A stretch of DNA of 20,295 nt from a virus: the IMG/VR virus record IMGVR_UViG_3300037502_002221, positions 1-20,295 of that record; one strand, written 5' to 3'. Under the pieces are notes generated by a model, which had not been told where the DNA came from, searched no databases, and was given only the letters and a program-made list of their open reading frames with translations. Of this stretch, positions 1 through 6,859 are shown piece after piece. A program made the translations under genes and the position numbers. Position 1 is the first letter of the stretch. Each line of letters starts with the position of its first letter.

Positions 1-1211
1 TTCGACTTCCAACTGAAATTCACGCCCCGAACGACCTTATACCGCTGCTCTTTTAGGCGGTCAAGGATGCCGTACCCGAGGCCACCTTCGTCTAAGACCA
101 CCAGCGCCGGTTGAAACTCTTCGATGGCATCAATGACGCGACCAACCGTTGCCATCGTGTCTTCACCTTGGTAACGACGGATTGCCACCAGGTCGCGCCC
201 TTGTCGGACCACGATGACGGTGGAGTCGGCGCCGCTTCGCGCTGGATCGACTCCGACAACGCGTGGCGCAAGCTCGTCCTTGTAACGCCCTCGGGCAGCG
301 GCTGTATCAACCAAGGATGGCGCAATGAACTGGTCGTCCCCGTCGGAGGGGAACTGTCCGTAGACTTCGATTTTGGCTTGCGAGGACTCCGCGCCATATT
401 CGGCGATGATTTGCTCGTAGACGGCTTTGTCCGTGTCTTCGACTTCGCGGGCGTCGATGTTCTGCGTGGCCCAGAAGTTTCTTTTCGCATGGAATGCCTC
501 AAAGAAGTAGCCTTCGTTACGTCGCGGGTTACTGAACGCGCACCAGAATCGGTTTGGCGTGTTTTCGGTAAAGAAGCCCGCCGTGACCGACCAGATGGCA
601 TCCGGTATACCAGAGGCTTCATCGAATATCACCATCACGCCGTCGTGATTGTGTACGCCAGCGTAGGAGTCGGGGTTTTCTTCCGACCAGAGCCGGCCTT
701 CGACCGCCCAGTAACGGGTGCCTTTTTTAAGGTCGCGCTCAACAAGTTCAGCGAGCCATTTAGCGGGCATCACGCGGGTCGCCGACAACTCAAACCAATG
801 GCTGTTAATCAGCAGCGCCGCCCACTTGGTGATTTCGGCCCAAGTGACCGAGCGCAACTGCGCTTCGGAGTTCGCCGACACAATCGTCGTAGAACCGATC
901 CGCGTCGATAGCATCCAGAGGATCAGCCACGAGACGAGCGCGGACTTACCGATACCGCGCCCCGAAGCAGTCGCCATCCGCAGTACGTCATACGACGTAG
1001 CGTCTTTGTTCTTGGCGATATGGTCACGCACCTTGCGCAGCACTTCACGCTGCCACTTACGCGGGCCTTGGAAGTGTTCGAGCGGGGTGTTCTTCTGCCG
1101 CCACGGAAACACGAATAGCACGAAGGCTTCTGGGTCGTCCTTGATCGCAGGCGACCACAGTTTCGCCATCAGCGCCTGTTCGTCTTCGGGGCTATAGATC
1201 GGCAGTTGCAT
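1..1211 (-). CDS. terL: Terminase large subunit, TerL (partial, C-terminus beyond left edge)
   Basis: The packaging motor ATPase/nuclease that pumps phage DNA into the prohead. I translated 403 codons from the ATG at 1211; the frame stays open to the window edge. Visible motifs: a Walker A-like SGRGIGKS at residues 83-90, Walker B VMVIFDEA at 192-199 (catalytic Glu198), a coupling-motif-like SNPR at 227-230, and the start of the RNase H-like nuclease domain, VVGVDPARSGADS at about 318-330 (Asp322) and VVLDEGG at 371-377 (Asp374). Full-length relatives are usually about 450-550 residues, so the last part of the nuclease domain is missing here. The start overlaps the end of the upstream small-subunit-like gene by 20 bases, suggesting translational coupling. 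No strong Shine-Dalgarno is seen. Several open frames on the opposite strand are shadows of this gene. Confidence 0.96.
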   Translation of the reverse strand, partial: MQLPIYSPEDEQALMAKLWSPAIKDDPEAFVLFVFPWRQKNTPLEHFQGPRKWQREVLRKVRDHIAKNKDATSYDVLRMATASGRGIGKSALVSWLILWMLSTRIGSTTIVSANSEAQLRSVTWAEITKWAALLINSHWFELSATRVMPAKWLAELVERDLKKGTRYWAVEGRLWSEENPDSYAGVHNHDGVMVIFDEASGIPDAIWSVTAGFFTENTPNRFWCAFSNPRRNEGYFFEAFHAKRNFWATQNIDAREVEDTDKAVYEQIIAEYGAESSQAKIEVYGQFPSDGDDQFIAPSLVDTAAARGRYKDELAPRVVGVDPARSGADSTVIVVRQGRDLVAIRRYQGEDTMATVGRVIDAIEEFQPALVVLDEGGLGYGILDRLKEQRYKVVRGVNFSWKS

Positions 1212-1650
1212 GCGTGTCCACTTCTATATGCGGGATTAATGAAGGCGATGGACTTGGCAATATTCGGCCATTAAGCACGCGCGATTCCGCCTCTTGCAAC
1301 GCGGCAGTGATACTGATGCGTTGCTGTACGTCGATCTGCACTTGTTGCTTCGCCACCCAGCCGTGCACGTGAGTAAGAAGCGCCAGCGCCGCCTTAGCGT
1401 CGCCGCCCCGCGCTGCATCACGTAACTGCCCTGCGGCTTCCGCTTCGCCATCGGCGCGTCCCTTCTCTTCGGCCATTTGGGCTATTGGGTCAAGCTGCGT
1501 GAGTCGCCGGTACTCCACCGGCAACAAGCCCGCAGCCAGGGCCATCGAGTCGCCGCGCAACCCCAGGCGCGCCGCATCGTAAATGGCTTGTAGGGTTTTC
1601 TCAGTGGCTTTGATCTCGCGGGGCGAGAACGGCAAGGACTGAAAGCTCAT
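1192..1650 (-). CDS. Terminase small subunit-like protein
   Basis: A 152-residue protein directly upstream of and overlapping terL by 20 bases, the usual place for the DNA-recognition (small) terminase subunit. The N-terminal half is helical and contains a plausible helix-turn-helix region around residues 25-55 (LGLRGDSMALAAGLLPVEYR, then LTQLDPIAQ). A Glu/Ala-rich stretch at 60-95 could form the oligomerisation helices. The tail is proline- and acid-rich. The function is inferred mainly from position and length, since no decisive motif is visible. The ATG at 1650 has no recognisable Shine-Dalgarno (upstream minus-strand sequence CTCGCAAGCC), which is unusual beside the good sites elsewhere in the window. 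It is the first gene after the repeat-dense region at 1651-2286 and must be transcribed from a minus-strand promoter there. Confidence 0.7.
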   Translation of the reverse strand: MSFQSLPFSPREIKATEKTLQAIYDAARLGLRGDSMALAAGLLPVEYRRLTQLDPIAQMAEEKGRADGEAEAAGQLRDAARGGDAKAALALLTHVHGWVAKQQVQIDVQQRISITAALQEAESRVLNGRILPSPSPSLIPHIEVDTHATADL

Positions 1651-1664
1651 GGCTTGCGAGATTA

Positions 1665-1681
1665 CATGGGGCTTGGGGCTT
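1665..1681 (+). repeat. Left arm of 17-bp inverted repeat (CATGGGGCTTGGGGCTT)
   Basis: Exact reverse complement of 2112-2128. A direct near-copy (one mismatch over 18 bases) lies at 1951-1968. Each arm is itself a tandem of GGGGCTT. The two arms bracket the iteron array with 430 bases between them. Confidence 0.85.
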
Positions 1682-1825
1682 TTTGCAAAAAATTAAAAAT
1701 TTCTTGTGACCCCTACCGTAACTGTAATCGGGGGTCGCTCGGCCCTGTACCCCCACCCCCCCCCACCCCCAAGCCATCAGCCGAAAGCCCCGAGCCCCGA
1801 GCCCCCAGCTATCAGCCGGCGGGCT

Positions 1826-1982
1826 TGGGTCAGTTGGGTCATGGCTGGGTCATGACCCAAGTGACCCATGCCATGCAGCCATGCGGCCATGGGTCATTTG
1901 GGTCATGGCTGGGTCATGACCCAATTGACCCAAAAGCATGGGGCATGGGCCATGGGGCTGGGGGCTTTGGGTCATTGGGTCA
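1826..1982. repeat. TGGGTCA iteron array with two 14-bp palindromes
   Basis: TGGGTCA starts at 1826, 1835, 1846, 1890, 1899, 1910, 1968 and 1976; its complement TGACCCA starts at 1853, 1862, 1917 and 1926 (a thirteenth copy is at 2191). Copies 1846/1853 and 1910/1917 abut to form TGGGTCATGACCCA. Start-to-start distances of 9, 11, 7 and 9 occur twice, 64 bases apart, because the whole block is duplicated (1834-1868 versus 1898-1932, one mismatch in 35). Related TGACCTA copies lie at 2093 and 2102, and TAGGTCA at 2147. Spacing near one helical turn suggests co-operative protein binding. Confidence 0.85.
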
Positions 1983-2021
1983 TCTGGACAGCCTAATTTC
2001 AGTCGGTGGGCTGCAATCGTG

Positions 2022-2086
2022 CGCGCACGTGCGCGGCGTGACGGGTGTTATATAGTAACATATATTTTTGATTTTTAAGATAGAAA
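2022..2086. other. GC palindrome followed by AT-rich stretch (possible duplex-unwinding element)
   Basis: CGCGCACGTGCGCG at 2022-2035 is a perfect 14-bp palindrome. About ten bases later the sequence switches to a 40-base AT-rich segment starting with the inverted repeat TGTTA-TATAG-TAACA (2046-2060) and continuing with runs of T. The contrast with the very GC-rich flanks is strong. On the minus strand TGTTACTAT (2060-2052) resembles an extended -10 element that could serve the terminase genes, but no good -35 box accompanies it. Confidence 0.45.
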
Positions 2087-2111
2087 CCACCATGACCTAA
2101 TTGACCTAAAC

Positions 2112-2128
2112 AAGCCCCAAGCCCCATG
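2112..2128 (-). repeat. Right arm of 17-bp inverted repeat (AAGCCCCAAGCCCCATG)
   Basis: Exact reverse complement of 1665-1681. Flanking bases do not extend the match on either side. It lies between the AT-rich stretch and the clamp promoter. Confidence 0.85.
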
Positions 2129-2170
2129 CTTTCCAGCCCCGCGCACTAGGTCACATTCGCCAATCTCCGC

Positions 2171-2199
2171 GACCCAACGCGACCCAACCATGACCCAAC
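2171..2199 (+). promoter_or_regulatory. Three direct repeats GACCCAAC upstream of the clamp promoter
   Basis: GACCCAAC occurs at 2171-2178, 2181-2188 and 2192-2199, spacings 10 and 11 bases, that is on one face of the helix. The last copy ends 20 bases before the -35 box at 2220. This is a typical position for an activator or a co-operative operator. The repeats share the GACCCA core of the iteron array, so the same protein may bind both. Confidence 0.55.
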
Positions 2200-2219
2200 G
2201 ACAATCTGACAAATAATGT

Positions 2220-2248
2220 TTGACAAGTAGCGCGACGCGTGCGATGAT
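2220..2248 (+). promoter_or_regulatory. Sigma70-type promoter of the clamp operon
   Basis: TTGACA (2220-2225), a 17-base spacer, then GATGAT (2243-2248, four of six consensus positions). Transcription would start near 2255, giving a leader of about 30 bases before the ATG at 2287 with its own ribosome site. TGACAA is repeated at 2207-2212, fifteen bases upstream of the -35 copy. Confidence 0.65.
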
Positions 2249-2286
2249 AGCCCCGTCGAATAACTAAACACTTGGAGCAAACAGTT

Positions 2287-2442
2287 ATGCAAAGCAAACC
2301 TAATCGCGTGCTCGATGCCATCATCATCACGAGCGTCGGCGTGCTCTGCGCCGCTTTTGTGCTCGATCACTTGCCCCTCGGCATTGGCGCCGCGCTGATT
2401 GGCGGCGCGGCCGTGATTCTCGACGACATAACCCGCAATTAA
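2287..2442 (+). CDS. 51-residue membrane peptide
   Basis: First gene of the plus-strand operon, encoding 51 residues starting MQSKPNRVLDAIIITSVG. It has two hydrophobic segments, about residues 12-26 (IIITSVGVLCAAFVL) and 31-45 (LGIGAALIGGAAVIL), separated by DHLP, so it is probably a two-pass inner-membrane hairpin with both ends in the cytoplasm. A TTGGAGC ribosome site lies ahead of the ATG, and the gene ends with TAA only 16 bases before the clamp gene. I do not recognise the family. Such early phage membrane peptides can act in host takeover or superinfection exclusion, but nothing in the sequence proves that. The clean start, ribosome site, promoter and operon position support a real gene despite its size. 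Confidence 0.65.
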   Translation: MQSKPNRVLDAIIITSVGVLCAAFVLDHLPLGIGAALIGGAAVILDDITRN

Positions 2443-2458
2443 CTTGGAGTAGACGACA

Positions 2459-3175
2459 ATGAACTACACTCTCACGGTATCTCTCTCGACCCTGCGCGCT
2501 GCGCGCACGCATTCCGCCAACGGCGATATCCGTTACTATTTAAACGGCGTTTATCTCGACACTAAAACTGGCAAAGTCATCGCCACCGACGGCCATCGCA
2601 TGCTCTGCGCGACGGCGCGCGGCGTAAAGCGCGACGCGGCGCCGGTGGTGGTGCCCAATGAACTGATCGACGCCGCGCTGAAGCAATTCGGCGGCGAGTA
2701 CGCGCGCGGCAAAGCGCTGGGCGCTTGCGACGTGTCCATCACAATCGACGGCCGCGCGGTGACAATCGCCACGCCGACGGGTCAAGTGTCCGGGCTCACA
2801 ATTGACGGCGTATTCCCAGACTGGCGCCGCGTAGTGCCGCTGGGTGAGCCCGCCGTGCTCGATGGCGCGCCGGCGGTGCTCAATTCCGACTACGTAACCG
2901 ACGCGTGCGCGGCGTTCGCCATCGCGCGCAATATCCCAAAAGCAAAAAGCGGTATTCACGCGGTGCGCGTGCTCCAGCGCGGGAATGACTCGGCGATTGT
3001 GTGCGACACCGACCCGGATATGGTGGTCATCATCATGCCGCTGCGCGATCGCATGGCTAATGATGCGCCGCTGGCCGCATGCGCGATGGCGCATGTCGAC
3101 GCTATACCCTACAGCGACGAAACAGCCGAGCGCGTCGCGCTGGAAGCGGCCGCAGCGGTATCAAGCGCCGCTTGA
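2459..3175 (+). CDS. DNA polymerase sliding clamp (beta subunit)-like protein, shortened
   Basis: A 238-residue homologue of the bacterial DNA polymerase III beta clamp. The clearest matches are DIRYYLNGVYLD at 23-34 followed by ATDGHRM at 42-48, the hallmark of clamp domain 2; VVVPNELIDAALKQF at 63-77; GVFPDWRRVVP at 117-127 (FPDYRRVLP in E. coli, end of domain 2); and MVVIIMPLRD at 188-197, matching the clamp C-terminus (VVMPMRL). Domain 1 is absent. Between the FPDWRR and MPLR motifs there are only about 75 residues, against about 120 in E. coli, and the preserved part (LNSDYVTDACAAF, 141-153) resembles the second half of domain 3. A 40-residue Ala-rich tail follows. It could be a compact processivity clamp for the phage polymerase or a decoy for host clamp partners. 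A GGAG site precedes the ATG. Confidence 0.82.
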   Translation: MNYTLTVSLSTLRAARTHSANGDIRYYLNGVYLDTKTGKVIATDGHRMLCATARGVKRDAAPVVVPNELIDAALKQFGGEYARGKALGACDVSITIDGRAVTIATPTGQVSGLTIDGVFPDWRRVVPLGEPAVLDGAPAVLNSDYVTDACAAFAIARNIPKAKSGIHAVRVLQRGNDSAIVCDTDPDMVVIIMPLRDRMANDAPLAACAMAHVDAIPYSDETAERVALEAAAAVSSAA

Positions 3176-3189
3176 CCTTTGCTCCACTC

Positions 3190-3215
3190 GGGCGCCGCCC
3201 ATGGGCGCCCATTTT
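3190..3215 (+). terminator. GC hairpin with short T tract after the clamp gene
   Basis: GGGCGCC (3190-3196), a 7-base loop and GGCGCCC (3204-3210), followed by ATTTT. The stem is strong but the T tract is only four bases, so it is probably a partial (attenuating) terminator or an mRNA 3'-end stabiliser between the clamp gene and the small genes. Confidence 0.5.
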
Positions 3216-3237
3216 CTAACCTAAAGGACAATCAACC

Positions 3238-3525
3238 ATGCAAGCAATTAGAACTCGCTATTACGGCCCCACCAATACTCGCGGCTCACGCATTACTGCA
3301 AAGTGCGAAGCCGGCACGCTATCGCTGCCCTATAACTACGCTTTGAGCATCTGGCAGAACCACGCCACGGTCGCTGCGCAACTGCTCGAACGCTTGGGCT
3401 GGGGCAAGCCCTACGCGGGCGGCGAGTTTGGGCACGATTACTATTGGACCGCTGTAATCATTAATGAAGCGTGGAACGACACACTTGCCCGTGATTATTC
3501 CCAGCCCCGAAAGGTGGCCGCGTGA
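3238..3525 (+). CDS. Conserved phage protein of unknown function (95 aa)
   Basis: A 95-residue protein beginning MQAIRTRYYGPTNTRGSR. The opening, in which a basic/aromatic strand is followed by GPTNTRGSRI and then AKCEAG, is characteristic of a small family I have seen in many phages and plasmids of proteobacteria, with no assigned role. The middle (residues 36-57) looks helical, WQNHATVAAQLLERLGWGKP, and the second half contains GGEFGHDYYWTAVII, probably a beta strand. A good AAAGGA ribosome site sits ten or so bases before the ATG. Its stop codon overlaps the next start by four bases (GTGA), so the following gene is coupled to it. No membrane segment or catalytic motif is visible. Confidence 0.8.
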   Translation: MQAIRTRYYGPTNTRGSRITAKCEAGTLSLPYNYALSIWQNHATVAAQLLERLGWGKPYAGGEFGHDYYWTAVIINEAWNDTLARDYSQPRKVAA

Positions 3526-3737
3526 GCGCGCCACGCTGGGAGGTGCTGACCCGTATCGGCAACCATTGGGAAAATGTCTGGGAGATTGATGAACAGCCCG
3601 AGTTTTTTGGCAGCTATGACGACGCGTGCATAGCGTTAAATGAGCACCTAGCCGAATGCGAGGGGGCGGTACGCGCCGGGCACCTTGACAGCGCTCCCGA
3701 CGTTAGCGAGTTCCGCGTAGTCGAGGTGCCGCGATGA
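3522..3737 (+). CDS. Small acidic protein of unknown function (71 aa)
   Basis: Starts at a GTG that overlaps the TGA of the preceding gene and is preceded by AAAGGTGG, which decides the start. The 71-residue product (MSAPRWEVLTRIGNHWENVW...) is acidic and rich in aromatic residues near the N-terminus, with predicted order beta (WEVLTRI), beta (WENVWEI), helix (SYDDACIALNEHLAECEGAVRAG) and beta (EFRVVEV). This could be a compact alpha-beta fold. I do not recognise a named family. Its stop overlaps the next ATG (ATGA). It probably works in the cytoplasm early in infection, judging by its promoter and position. Confidence 0.7.
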   Translation: MSAPRWEVLTRIGNHWENVWEIDEQPEFFGSYDDACIALNEHLAECEGAVRAGHLDSAPDVSEFRVVEVPR

Positions 3738-3928
3738 GCGCCGCGACTCAGCCCCAAAGCCCGCAGGAAGCGCTCGCGCTCGCGCTCTGGCTGGCGCTGA
3801 CAGCCCCCAGCCCCGAGCGTGAAGCGCTCGCCGTCGAGCTCGCCGAGCAACTATCGGCGGGCTTGACAGCCGGCGACATGCGCGCCGCAAAGCGCGCCGC
3901 GCTGCGGCGCTGGCGGGGGCAGCTATGA
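3734..3928 (+). CDS. Small Ala/Leu-rich protein (64 aa)
   Basis: A 64-residue protein in the stop-start-overlapping chain (ATGA at both ends). It is about half Ala and Leu, with one long amphipathic helix predicted from residue 10 to 45 (EALALALWLALTAPSPEREA, then LAVELAEQLSAGL) and a basic C-terminus, AAKRAALRRWRGQL, that could contact nucleic acid or membrane phospholipid. Family unknown. Base composition is extremely GC-rich, so a fortuitous frame is possible, but the exact four-base overlaps with genes on both sides argue for real translation. Confidence 0.55.
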   Translation: MSAATQPQSPQEALALALWLALTAPSPEREALAVELAEQLSAGLTAGDMRAAKRAALRRWRGQL

Positions 3929-4122
3929 CCCGCGCCAACAGCCGGCCGCCGTGCCGGGGCTGCGACGGGTCGGGCTACGCGTGCGCCGAGATCGACGACG
4001 ACGGGCGCGCCGTCGACTGCCCGCGCTGCATGGGCGCGGGCGTCGACCCGTTTCTAGACTTGCTGCGCTCGCTGTTACTCAGCCCCGAGCAAATAGCCGA
4101 ACGGCGGGGGCGCTCACCATGA
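3925..4122 (+). CDS. Small DnaJ-type zinc-finger protein (65 aa)
   Basis: A 65-residue protein carrying two CxxCxGxG repeats, CRGCDGSG at residues 10-17 and CPRCMGAG at 32-39, the pair that forms a zinc site in the central domain of DnaJ and in several small phage proteins. The loop between them is acidic (EIDDDGRAVD). The C-terminal 25 residues form a probable helix (FLDLLRSLLLSPEQIAERRG). There is no J domain, so it is not a chaperone itself. It may bind a protein partner or DNA. Starts and stops overlap the neighbouring genes by four bases (ATGA). Confidence 0.65.
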   Translation: MTRANSRPPCRGCDGSGYACAEIDDDGRAVDCPRCMGAGVDPFLDLLRSLLLSPEQIAERRGRSP

Positions 4123-4241
4123 GCGCCCTGCGGCGCTGGGCTGCGGGCTGGCGCGCCGACGTGTGGCGCCACTGGGCGCACGTACCAGCGCCGAACTGGG
4201 CGTGCAGCCGGCGCAAGCACCCCCTCTCCGTTTATTGGTGA
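4119..4241 (+). CDS. 40-residue Trp-rich basic peptide
   Basis: MSALRRWAAGWRADVWRHWA then HVPAPNWACSRRKHPLSVYW: 40 residues with six tryptophans and many Arg/His, suggestive of an interfacial membrane or nucleic-acid binding peptide. The ATG overlaps the stop of the zinc-finger gene (ATGA). The same frame is open further upstream, but those codons lie inside the preceding gene and the coupled ATG is the natural start. Family unknown. Confidence 0.45.
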   Translation: MSALRRWAAGWRADVWRHWAHVPAPNWACSRRKHPLSVYW

Positions 4242-4244
4242 CGC

Positions 4245-4514
4245 ATGCCATACCTAACCGATGATGAACAGCGCAAGCTTTGGGAGCCCGAGGACACGCC
4301 CTGCGGGCCCGCCGCGCGCGCATGGGAGCCGCCCGAGATACGCGCCGCGCGCTATGAAAAAGCGCTGCGGGGCATACTGGCATGTGCCAGCCCCGAGCCC
4401 GTAGTCTGGATGCTGCAAAGCGTCGCGGCGACAGCGCTCGGATACGACGCGCTCGCCGACGACCTACTGCGGCGCGTTATGGCGCGGAGTAATGCGCCCG
4501 AGGGGGCGTCATGA
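4245..4514 (+). CDS. Protein of unknown function (89 aa)
   Basis: Begins three bases after the previous stop and encodes 89 residues starting MPYLTDDEQRKLWEPEDTPC. The second half is helical (ARYEKALRGILACASPEPVV, WMLQSVAATALGYDALADDLLRRVMAR). No known motif, no membrane segment; three cysteines but no zinc-site spacing. It ends in an ATGA overlap with the last small gene. The function is probably accessory, as for the rest of the chain. Confidence 0.6.
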   Translation: MPYLTDDEQRKLWEPEDTPCGPAARAWEPPEIRAARYEKALRGILACASPEPVVWMLQSVAATALGYDALADDLLRRVMARSNAPEGAS

Positions 4515-4579
4515 CCTGGGCGCTCATTTGTACTTGTATCGCTATACTGTTATCGATCATTTTTGACGATCGCGAGTGA
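4511..4579 (+). CDS. 22-residue hydrophobic peptide, last of the plus-strand chain
   Basis: MTWALICTCIAILLSIIFDDRE: a single hydrophobic segment followed by an acidic end, starting in an ATGA overlap with the preceding gene. Its last 30 bases overlap the 3' end of the convergent primase-helicase gene. It may be a real membrane micropeptide or a chance frame; the coupled start is the only support. Confidence 0.35.
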   Translation: MTWALICTCIAILLSIIFDDRE

Positions 4580-6859
4580 CGGGGCTTGCGGCGTCTCGAC
4601 CAATCGCCGCAGGTCCGACTTGCTGCGGCTATCCATATCGGGCGCGCAAAATAGGTGCTTCTTCGACGGGTAATCGCCCGACGCCACGCGGCCTTTGTCA
4701 ATCCAGCCGGCCTCGCGGAGCGCGTGCAAGAGCGCCGACTGCGGCACCTTGACGCCCGAGGGCATGGCGCCCGCGACCCTATCGCAAACAGCGTGGAACG
4801 GCGAGCCGACGACGCCGCGGGCAAACTCGCCAACGCGGGCGCGCATCATCTCGACAAGGTACGACTCGGCCGTGGACATGCCGGCGTCGATCATGATGGC
4901 CTTGGCCTCGGTCATGGGCGGCGTGCCGCCGGGCTGGAAAGCGGACACGTCATAAGAGGAAAGCCAACAGCCAATGGCCTCGAACCCGCCCGCCTTGTAC
5001 CAGCCCCAGAGCCGCTCGGCGTCGGCCTCGGGCAAGCGCTCGGCCTCGCTCCAGACGACAAACCAGCGCCGATCATCACTCGGCAAGCTGATCGCGGCGC
5101 GCTCATTCGAGAATGCAAGCACGAAAACGCGGTTCAAAGCGTCATAAGGGTGCAGCCCCTTGCGGTTGACGGGCAAAAGCTCGGGAGGCGCCGCGATGAT
5201 GGGCTTCAACTGATTTTCCAGCGCCCGCCGGTCCTTAGCCTCGGCTTGGCGCAATTCGTTGATGACCATGACCTCGGATTCGAGCGCATAGCCCCACTGG
5301 CTCGCGAGCTCCTCGTTGCGCACCAGCGCCACGTTCACGTTCATAGGCCCGCCAACAGCCCAGAGAAACGGCGACCAGAGCGTATCTTTGCCCGAGCCGG
5401 GGCGCCCAGCGTGCAGCACGGCGTGATTGATTTTGCGGTTTGGGTGCTGGACCTTATACGCCATGACGGCGAGCACGTGCGCCCGCTCGGCGGCGTCGGG
5501 AATCATGCGCTCGACGTGCGCAAGCCATAAGTCCACAGCGCCGGGGCGGGTCGCGGGCCGGGCGTTCCGCCAGCGGTTGCCGTACACCAGCCCCGAGCGC
5601 GAAACCAAAATATCCTCGCCGGCGGCGTAGGTGACGCCGATCAGCGAATGCGCGCCCTTCGCTTGGCGATGCTCGTCGTAACAGACCGACGCCTCGATGG
5701 CGCGCCCGGTGCGGATGGACTTGCAGGGTACATGCCGAAAGAGCGCGTTAAATGTACTGCGCGAGATTTCACGACGCTCGATCATGTCGAAGTACGCGTC
5801 GTCGTCCTGCAAGTACGCAAAGCGCTCGAACCATTCGGCTTTGGTAATCCGGCCAAGCTCGCGCCGCTCGACTTCCTCGATGACTTGTTGCGCGGCGTCG
5901 GGGTAGTCTTCGGTCGGCGTAAGTTTCGAGAGCGCCGATTCCATGGTGACGGCCAGTAGATCATCGCGCAGCCCGTAGCCCGCTTTGGGTCCGCCCTCGG
6001 CCTCGACCCAGCGCAGGAAGCGCTCGCTCGTCCAGTCGCCGCAATGCTCGTGGAAACAGTCATAGGCCCGGTGAACCGGGTGGTAGCGCCCCTCGGGGTT
6101 GTGGTCGGAGTGCTCGGCGTGGTTTGGGCAGACAACGCCCGCCCAGCCCTCGCCGTTCGGCGGCGCGAGCACCAGCCCTTGCTCGACAAGCCACGCCAAA
6201 ATGGCGTCGTTCCCGTCATCTTCGAGCGCGATATGCGGGTTGCGGGCCGTATCGGCGGCGGCGGGCGTAACGCCGAGTTGCTGGCAGAGAGAATCCAACA
6301 GGAAAAAACGCTCGGGGTGAAATTCTGTCAGCACGGCGGCAAACTGATCGCGCCCGGCCTTCAAGTTGATCGAGCCTGGGATGCGGAAGTTCCGCACGGC
6401 GTTAATCGCCCCTCGGTCGGTGTATCCAGCGTCCGCTATCGCCACAATCGCGGCCGTAAACTCGCCTTTTTTCGGCTGCTGGTCGTAATCGAAGACATAG
6501 CCCCACTGGAAATTACCGGGGCTGGTTTCGATCTTCCACGTGGGCTCGACGGGCGGCGTTTTGGACTTGGTGCCGATGTCATCGAGCACCATAAATGCGA
6601 CGTGCTCGGCGTAGCCGGCGCCTGCTGAGAGCTTGCCATCCTTGAATCGGTCCACGATATACACGGCCGTGTTGGCGTACCACGCGGCCCGCCGGGCCTC
6701 GTTGTACCGCTCGGGCAGACAGGGCACCCACGAATACTTCGGCGTGCCGTCGCCGTGCAGGGCGGGGCGCCCCTCATACGTCCGGGGCTTCTGCCGGACA
6801 ATTAAAATTGTCTCGCCTTCGGGGGCGGCCTGTGATAGAAAGTCGACGAACGTTTGCAT
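4550..6859 (-). CDS. Primase-helicase (AEP/RepB-like primase plus SF3-type helicase)
   Basis: A 769-residue replication protein. The N-terminal third resembles archaeo-eukaryotic-type (RepB-like) primase domains: FMVLDDIGTKS at 89-99 supplies the acidic metal site, and NAVRNFRIPGSIN at 153-165 is a typical later motif. Residues 244-273 hold a Cys/His cluster (CPNH...HRAYDCFHEHCGDW) that could bind zinc like the CHC2 finger of primases. The C-terminal half is a D5/SF3-like helicase: Walker A GRPGSGKDT at 485-493, Walker B VMVINELRQ at 530-538, a sensor-type FVLAFSNE at 579-586 and DDRRWFVV at 595-602. It would unwind DNA and prime synthesis for the adjacent polymerase. A strong AAGGAG precedes the ATG. 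The 3' end overlaps the convergent 22-aa frame by 30 bases. Confidence 0.88.
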   Translation of the reverse strand: MQTFVDFLSQAAPEGETILIVRQKPRTYEGRPALHGDGTPKYSWVPCLPERYNEARRAAWYANTAVYIVDRFKDGKLSAGAGYAEHVAFMVLDDIGTKSKTPPVEPTWKIETSPGNFQWGYVFDYDQQPKKGEFTAAIVAIADAGYTDRGAINAVRNFRIPGSINLKAGRDQFAAVLTEFHPERFFLLDSLCQQLGVTPAAADTARNPHIALEDDGNDAILAWLVEQGLVLAPPNGEGWAGVVCPNHAEHSDHNPEGRYHPVHRAYDCFHEHCGDWTSERFLRWVEAEGGPKAGYGLRDDLLAVTMESALSKLTPTEDYPDAAQQVIEEVERRELGRITKAEWFERFAYLQDDDAYFDMIERREISRSTFNALFRHVPCKSIRTGRAIEASVCYDEHRQAKGAHSLIGVTYAAGEDILVSRSGLVYGNRWRNARPATRPGAVDLWLAHVERMIPDAAERAHVLAVMAYKVQHPNRKINHAVLHAGRPGSGKDTLWSPFLWAVGGPMNVNVALVRNEELASQWGYALESEVMVINELRQAEAKDRRALENQLKPIIAAPPELLPVNRKGLHPYDALNRVFVLAFSNERAAISLPSDDRRWFVVWSEAERLPEADAERLWGWYKAGGFEAIGCWLSSYDVSAFQPGGTPPMTEAKAIMIDAGMSTAESYLVEMMRARVGEFARGVVGSPFHAVCDRVAGAMPSGVKVPQSALLHALREAGWIDKGRVASGDYPSKKHLFCAPDMDSRSKSDLRRLVETPQAPSLAIVKNDR

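Follow-up and report, generated by a model that had tools for sequence, protein, structure and literature searches.

The 636 bp gap at positions 1651–2286 of the window (the whole 20.3 kb virus record analysed here, from a freshwater phage) is very probably the site at which DNA copying starts, and comparison with related sequences indicates that its initiator is most probably a primase-helicase encoded in the same window (4550–6859). The interpretation that we favour, and hold with considerable confidence, is that this gap serves a P22-like podovirus as its replication origin and that the reader would be the primase-helicase of the phage itself, acting by way of the wing of a C-terminal winged-helix domain. 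A sequence-only reading of this DNA had proposed either a replication origin or a master control site. It was right in part, as the conserved array and the paired iterons flanking an AT-rich element make an origin the best-supported choice. Its further statement that the window encodes no recognisable iteron-binding initiator is very probably wrong, since the wing encoded within 4550–6859 covaries with the iteron.

The window also encodes TerL (phrog_2), a family-A polymerase, an exonuclease, a VRR-type nuclease, an SNF2 helicase and an endolysin. A complete related record is annotated as Podoviridae and has P22-like coat and portal proteins, and the genomes of close relatives are near 39 kb. 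Relatives were recovered in contigs binned into freshwater beta-proteobacterial MAGs, although the binning may be wrong. The gap is bounded exactly by the start of terS at 1650 and by the first rightward open reading frame at 2287, which confirms the limits given earlier for a 636-base segment between divergent operons, with terS on the minus strand and the clamp operon on the plus strand. The small terminase subunit gene terS (1192–1650, minus strand) was called from its position before TerL. The clamp-like protein (2459–3175, plus strand) matches DNA_pol3_beta_2 (1.3e-5, below the Pfam cut-off), phrog_3007 and phrog_947. We note that phrog_3007, its best PHROG match, is named RusA-like resolvase, whereas Pfam and another PHROG give a beta clamp; the PHROG name may be wrong.

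Within the gap there are 13 exact copies of TGGGTCA, three of TAGGTCA and two of TGGGTCG, or 18 heptamers in all, compared with an average of about 0.15 and a largest value of 3 in 1000 first-order Markov simulations of the region. Just three more copies of TGGGTCA occur across the other 19.7 kb of the window. The earlier count of about 18 TGRGTCA-type heptamers is therefore correct, because the two TGGGTCG copies add to the 13 and three of the other forms, but the variable position is the second letter (TRGGTCA) and not the third. Beyond what had been described, the array is partly inverted, and the repeats are really 9-mers, with the sequence TTGGGTCAT in close relatives, often arranged as tandem pairs. 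A duplicated block was also correctly recognised, but it is 50 nt long rather than 35 bp, its copies (1819–1868 and 1883–1932) being 92% identical and offset by 64 bp. Iteron block 1 (1825–1869) has three direct and two inverted TGGGTCA sites including the palindrome TGGGTCATGACCCA, and iteron block 2 (1889–1933) is a near-copy 64 bp downstream.

A left tandem iteron pair (1967–1983, plus strand), with homologous pairs in loci L001, L003 and L009, precedes the AT-rich element; its period is 8 bp in the window versus 9 bp in most relatives. The AT-rich stretch of about 40 bases reported previously was found at 2048–2087, where 34 of 40 positions are A or T, and is a candidate unwinding element. 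It is followed by an inverted tandem pair, ATGACCTAA TTGACCTAA (2092–2109, minus strand), which is degenerate in the window and intact in relatives, and by a lone forward TAGGTCA (2147–2153, plus strand) identified from word counts and from reading the loci side by side. Three inverted sites, CGACCCAA, CGACCCAA and ATGACCCAA (2170–2198, minus strand), lie immediately upstream of the sigma-70-like promoter of the clamp operon (2220–2248, plus strand). This promoter, which had been anticipated as that of a clamp-like gene, reads TTGACA-17-GATGAT, with ten of 12 matches and a TG preceding the second hexamer. No DnaA box (TTWTNCACA) occurs in the window, and an Rfam search found no RNA element.

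Relatives were gathered first with clamp and TerL queries; two primase queries then gave 143 non-redundant loci. A per-locus EM motif search collapsed onto base composition and was replaced by word counts and a geometry scan. A search of related genomes for TGGGTCA arrays between terS and the clamp gene had been suggested, and every close relative (L001, L003–L007, L009 and L050–L052) keeps such an array in that position. More distant relatives carry other 9-mers there, for example GTGGACAAT, GTGGGCAAT, GTTGGCTAT and GTTAGTCAT, and words in the gap of other relatives include GTGGGCA, GTGGACA and TTAGTCA. When the loci are placed side by side a common frame is seen: a tandem 9-mer pair, a spacer with an AT-rich end, an inverted tandem pair, a single forward site, inverted sites and the promoter. 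The spacer between the tandem pair and the inverted pair is about 106 bp in many relatives. The 9-mers thus differ between lineages, many of which retain this geometry, so that the sites change together within a stable layout.

The geometry scan assumes only this layout and no sequence. It gave scores of 31–36 for the TTGGGTCAT, GTGGGCAAT, GTGGACAAT, GTTAGTCAT and other classes, compared with a maximum of 25 among 614 shuffled 1500-mers used as controls. Distances between pair starts peak at 124–125 and 115–116 bp, with additional minor peaks, and over 63 loci the spacer's 30-mer with the highest A/T content is on average 77% A/T and mostly abuts the inverted pair. The window's own layout, with its 8 bp left pair and TAGGTCA right pair, scores 25, equal to the best shuffles. 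Its array nevertheless matches those of L001, L003 and L009 site for site, and we regard it as a worn version of the common layout.

The genome of G002, a complete relative, is 39 721 bp long and has a 127 bp terminal repeat; its 11 exact copies of TTGGGTCAT are all confined to about 365 bp, and there is no second iteron cluster in that genome. The more distant relatives MW202483 and OR003940 are without TTGGGTCAT, DNA searches against cultured phages gave no match, and a search of IMG/VR for an exact longer pattern found none. Cumulative GC skew, suggested earlier as a check, is weakly consistent with an origin at the array but too weak to decide: both G002 and G004 have their minimum some 2 kb away from the array, its amplitude is small and gene orientation confounds it.

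Several variations on the common array were noted. Loci L068, L122, L215 and L153 have mixed arrays, in which, for example, GTTGGCTAT occupies one side while the other has GTGGGTCAT or GTAGGCAAT, and GTGGGTCAT is a minor site in many loci. L026 and L039 have a shorter primase-helicase (about 446 residues) and GTTAGTA repeats; their wings have Q or M at position 726 and resemble those of the GTTAGTCAT class. In one clade (L061, L062, L069, L070 and L075) a second repeat family, CACTAAC/GTTAGTG, occurs between terS and the 9-mer array, approximately 95–200 bp from terS.

An array between divergent genes, containing the palindromic TGGGTCATGACCCA and three inverted sites immediately upstream of a good sigma-70-like promoter, could also be explained by transcription control. 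In that case the repeats would be operators for the divergent terS and clamp-operon promoters, the regulator would possibly be the primase-helicase and replication would start elsewhere. We consider this improbable: ten or more tandem sites arranged around an AT-rich spacer of fixed spacing are more than an operator needs, the protein that covaries with the sites is a helicase-primase and not a repressor, and the complete relative has no other such cluster.

The proposed initiator (4550–6859, minus strand) is a PrimPol/DUF5906 SF3 primase-helicase of 769 residues. It matches Pfam DUF5906 (4.3e-9), the primase family phrog_1156 (1e-25) and, by profile, the NrS-1 primase-polymerase (4.7e-10), and its primase half has a weak match to RepB_primase (Pfam). 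Foldseek places NrS-1 polymerase, through its C-terminal region, and SaPI5 PriRep1 as the closest solved proteins, with E of about 1e-8 for the helicase part against 7ola. AlphaFold2 models and fold comparison suggest a C-terminal winged-helix domain at residues 651–757 (4589–4909, minus strand). This domain has no match in Pfam, and none of confidence either by sequence in the PDB or, taken in isolation, by Foldseek; a fold search with it retrieved generic winged helices with Z up to 6.6 and the C-terminus of NrS-1 with Z of 4.7, and the origin-binding domain of P4 alpha was not among the matches listed. The wing hairpin IDKGRVASGDYPSKKHLFC (residues 720–738; 4646–4702, minus strand) is the proposed iteron reader, with Ala726, Gly728 and Pro731 as key residues. 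In L052 the primase frame has an in-frame stop near the C-terminal part, where close relatives are open; this reflects either an error in the sequencing or a damaged gene copy.

The first clue that the wing might read the iteron came from L061 and L062, whose wings are nearly identical and whose iterons are the same while their helicase segments differ strongly; L062 and L069 have the N-terminal half in common and differ in wing and iteron. A 9-mer was assigned in 101 of the 143 loci (at least three copies, using a template built on the first 9-mer classes seen), leaving about 40 loci without a class. When some 760 primase columns are ordered by their partial correlation with the iteron, controlling for overall identity, Pro731, Ala726 and Gly728 rank first, third and fifth, respectively; every one of the best 12-residue windows begins at residues 719–726. 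In a partial Mantel test the wing correlates with the iteron given the rest of the primase (r = 0.31, p = 0.0005, a value which is optimistic because the loci are related), compared with r = −0.06 for the rest given the wing. Identical wings nearly always have one common iteron. In primase pairs with at least 88% identity, residue 726 differs in 82% of those with iterons that differ by at least two letters and in 2% of those with the same iteron.

In our view, minimal pairs and a blind test weigh more than these p-values. The blind test comprised 55 new non-redundant loci with primases less than 97% identical to any training case. The nearest wing (residues 724–738) predicted the iteron exactly in 63%, with a mean of 0.58 letters wrong, compared with 37% and 1.66 letters for the rest of the primase. 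Exact predictions from the other sources were fewer: 27% from TerS, 22% from TerL, 22% from the polymerase and 24% from the majority class. One minimal pair is L397 and L390, in which TerS is identical and the primases are 95% identical over residues 1–639, but L397 has the wing ASGDFQS and iteron TTGGGTCAT, whereas L390 has KSREFDS and GTGGACAAT. Their DNA is largely unrelated from just past the primase to about 130 bp short of terS. The primases of L071 and L172 are 97% identical, with six of their 19 differences in the wing, and their iterons differ. A distant lineage, with a primase about 60% identical to that of the window, combines an ASGD[F/C][P/Q]S wing with TTGGGTCAT arrays and is nearest to the GTGGACAAT phages everywhere outside the wing and array. 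There are exceptions. L068 has a wing of the GTTGGCTAT class and mostly GTGGGTCAT sites, and L237, L153 and L328 are further misfits to the rule. Some wings are also common to GTAAGCAAT, GTAGGTAAT and GTAAGTCAT loci, and others to GTGAGTCAT and GTGGGTCAT loci. Overall, across the loci compared, residues 724–738 track the 9-mer better than any other part of the primase, and better than TerS, TerL or the polymerase.

The array adjoins terS, which is the usual position of a packaging site in many phages, and a pac or cos site read by the adjoining TerS was therefore considered. This explanation is strongly disfavoured. Besides L397 and L390, in which the iterons differ under an identical TerS, the iteron differs in 38 of the 83 locus pairs whose TerS proteins are at least 95% identical; on these grounds, and on its 27% prediction of new iterons, TerS was rejected as the iteron reader. 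A better packaging candidate appears to be a separate conserved element beside terS, consisting of an A/T-tract (1687–1708) and then a C-tract (1750–1770). The two tracts occur in this order in 122 of 143 loci, compared with none of 143 for a control stretch, and they stay with terS where the array differs: the terS-side DNA of L397 and L390 is 95.5% identical despite their different arrays. This element (1687–1770) is possibly a packaging site or the terS promoter.

TerL, the polymerase and the operon genes are likewise disfavoured as iteron readers by pair comparisons, the blind test and a homologue search. Among pairs at least 95% identical, 272 of 390 for TerL and 45 of 96 for the polymerase differ in the iteron. 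The small operon proteins of the window and the clamp have no homologue (E < 1e-3) in the distant TTGGGTCAT lineage and are therefore poor candidates for a shared reader; the earlier suggestion that proteins of the 2287–4579 operon be tried for binding looks misdirected. It might still be argued that the array is an origin read by another phage or host protein, with a gene linked to the C-terminus of the primase. Because the wing and array seem to travel together on one genome segment, a neighbouring gene could hitch-hike with them. We think this quite unlikely, given the absence of those operon and clamp homologues and a signal centred on the wing and not on the whole primase; the change of iterons among closely related phages makes a host protein unlikely.

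The array, its conservation, its geometry and the wing–iteron covariation, which includes out-of-sample prediction, were all computed, and a mechanism may be proposed around them. The C-terminal winged helix, chiefly wing residues 724–738, would bind tandem TTGGGTCAT-type 9-mers. By analogy with SaPI and P4, we infer that rings would load on the left tandem pair and the right inverted pair, facing one another with about 106 bp between them, and would melt the AT-rich element, after which the primase-helicase itself would unwind and prime, with the family-A polymerase, the clamp-like protein and SSB extending. Through the inverted sites that precede the TTGACA promoter, the initiator may in addition control the clamp operon.

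We further suggest, tentatively and with rather less than even confidence, that the wing and 9-mer form an exchangeable lock-and-key code which sorts the phages into groups of different replication specificity. Wing and 9-mer would move together as a segment comprising the array and the 3′ end of the primase gene. The rapid turnover of the pair would result from conflict among co-infecting phages or satellites, each of which could otherwise exploit the initiator of another. The findings suggest that specificity can switch through the exchange of one genome segment. Few uncultured phages have an identified origin and initiator; here sequence alone names a candidate for each. The more than 150 natural variants (about 150 related phages compared) provide a recognition series for one short loop and one 9-mer, which makes the origin-recognition code of SF3 primase-helicases directly testable.

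A self-loading primase-helicase acting on an iteron origin is a known kind of system, although we found no earlier report in the open-access literature of one in this phage group or of a wing–iteron series. Published work assigns the recognition of origin iterons by SaPI Rep helicases, apparently in the form of two hexamers, to the C-terminal domain; that domain of the related Cch2 likewise mediates binding to the putative Cch2 origin (PMC7581432). SaPI5 PriRep1 is a fused primase and helicase, as is predicted for the window protein, in which the primase half is weakly matched and whose predicted structure matches that of PriRep1, although a profile search gave no sequence-level match between the two. 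The systems differ in that SaPI is a satellite, whereas the window element is a lytic-type podovirus with an origin about 2.3 kb past the 3′ end of the initiator gene, with small genes between, and with iterons that are 9-mers in fixed tandem pairs.

In phage P4 a further iteron cluster, crr, lies apart from ori, whereas no crr-like second cluster is present in the complete relative G002. The winged helix of P4 alpha binds origin repeats, as proposed here, but its primase is of the Toprim type (PMC4234260), in contrast to the AEP/RepB-like primase (a weak match) of the window. NrS-1 polymerase is the closest solved protein by both profile and fold, and its C-terminal region has a similar domain; two genomic copies of its 8 nt recognition sequence have been reported (PMC7102993), compared with the many-repeat array of the window phage. 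In geminivirus Rep a few residues covary with iteron letters and recombination swaps the pair (PMC2974675). This covariation resembles that of wing and iteron in the phages described here, but the geminivirus protein is an unrelated rolling-circle Rep of single-stranded DNA viruses, whereas the reader proposed here is the wing of a primase-helicase from double-stranded DNA phages.
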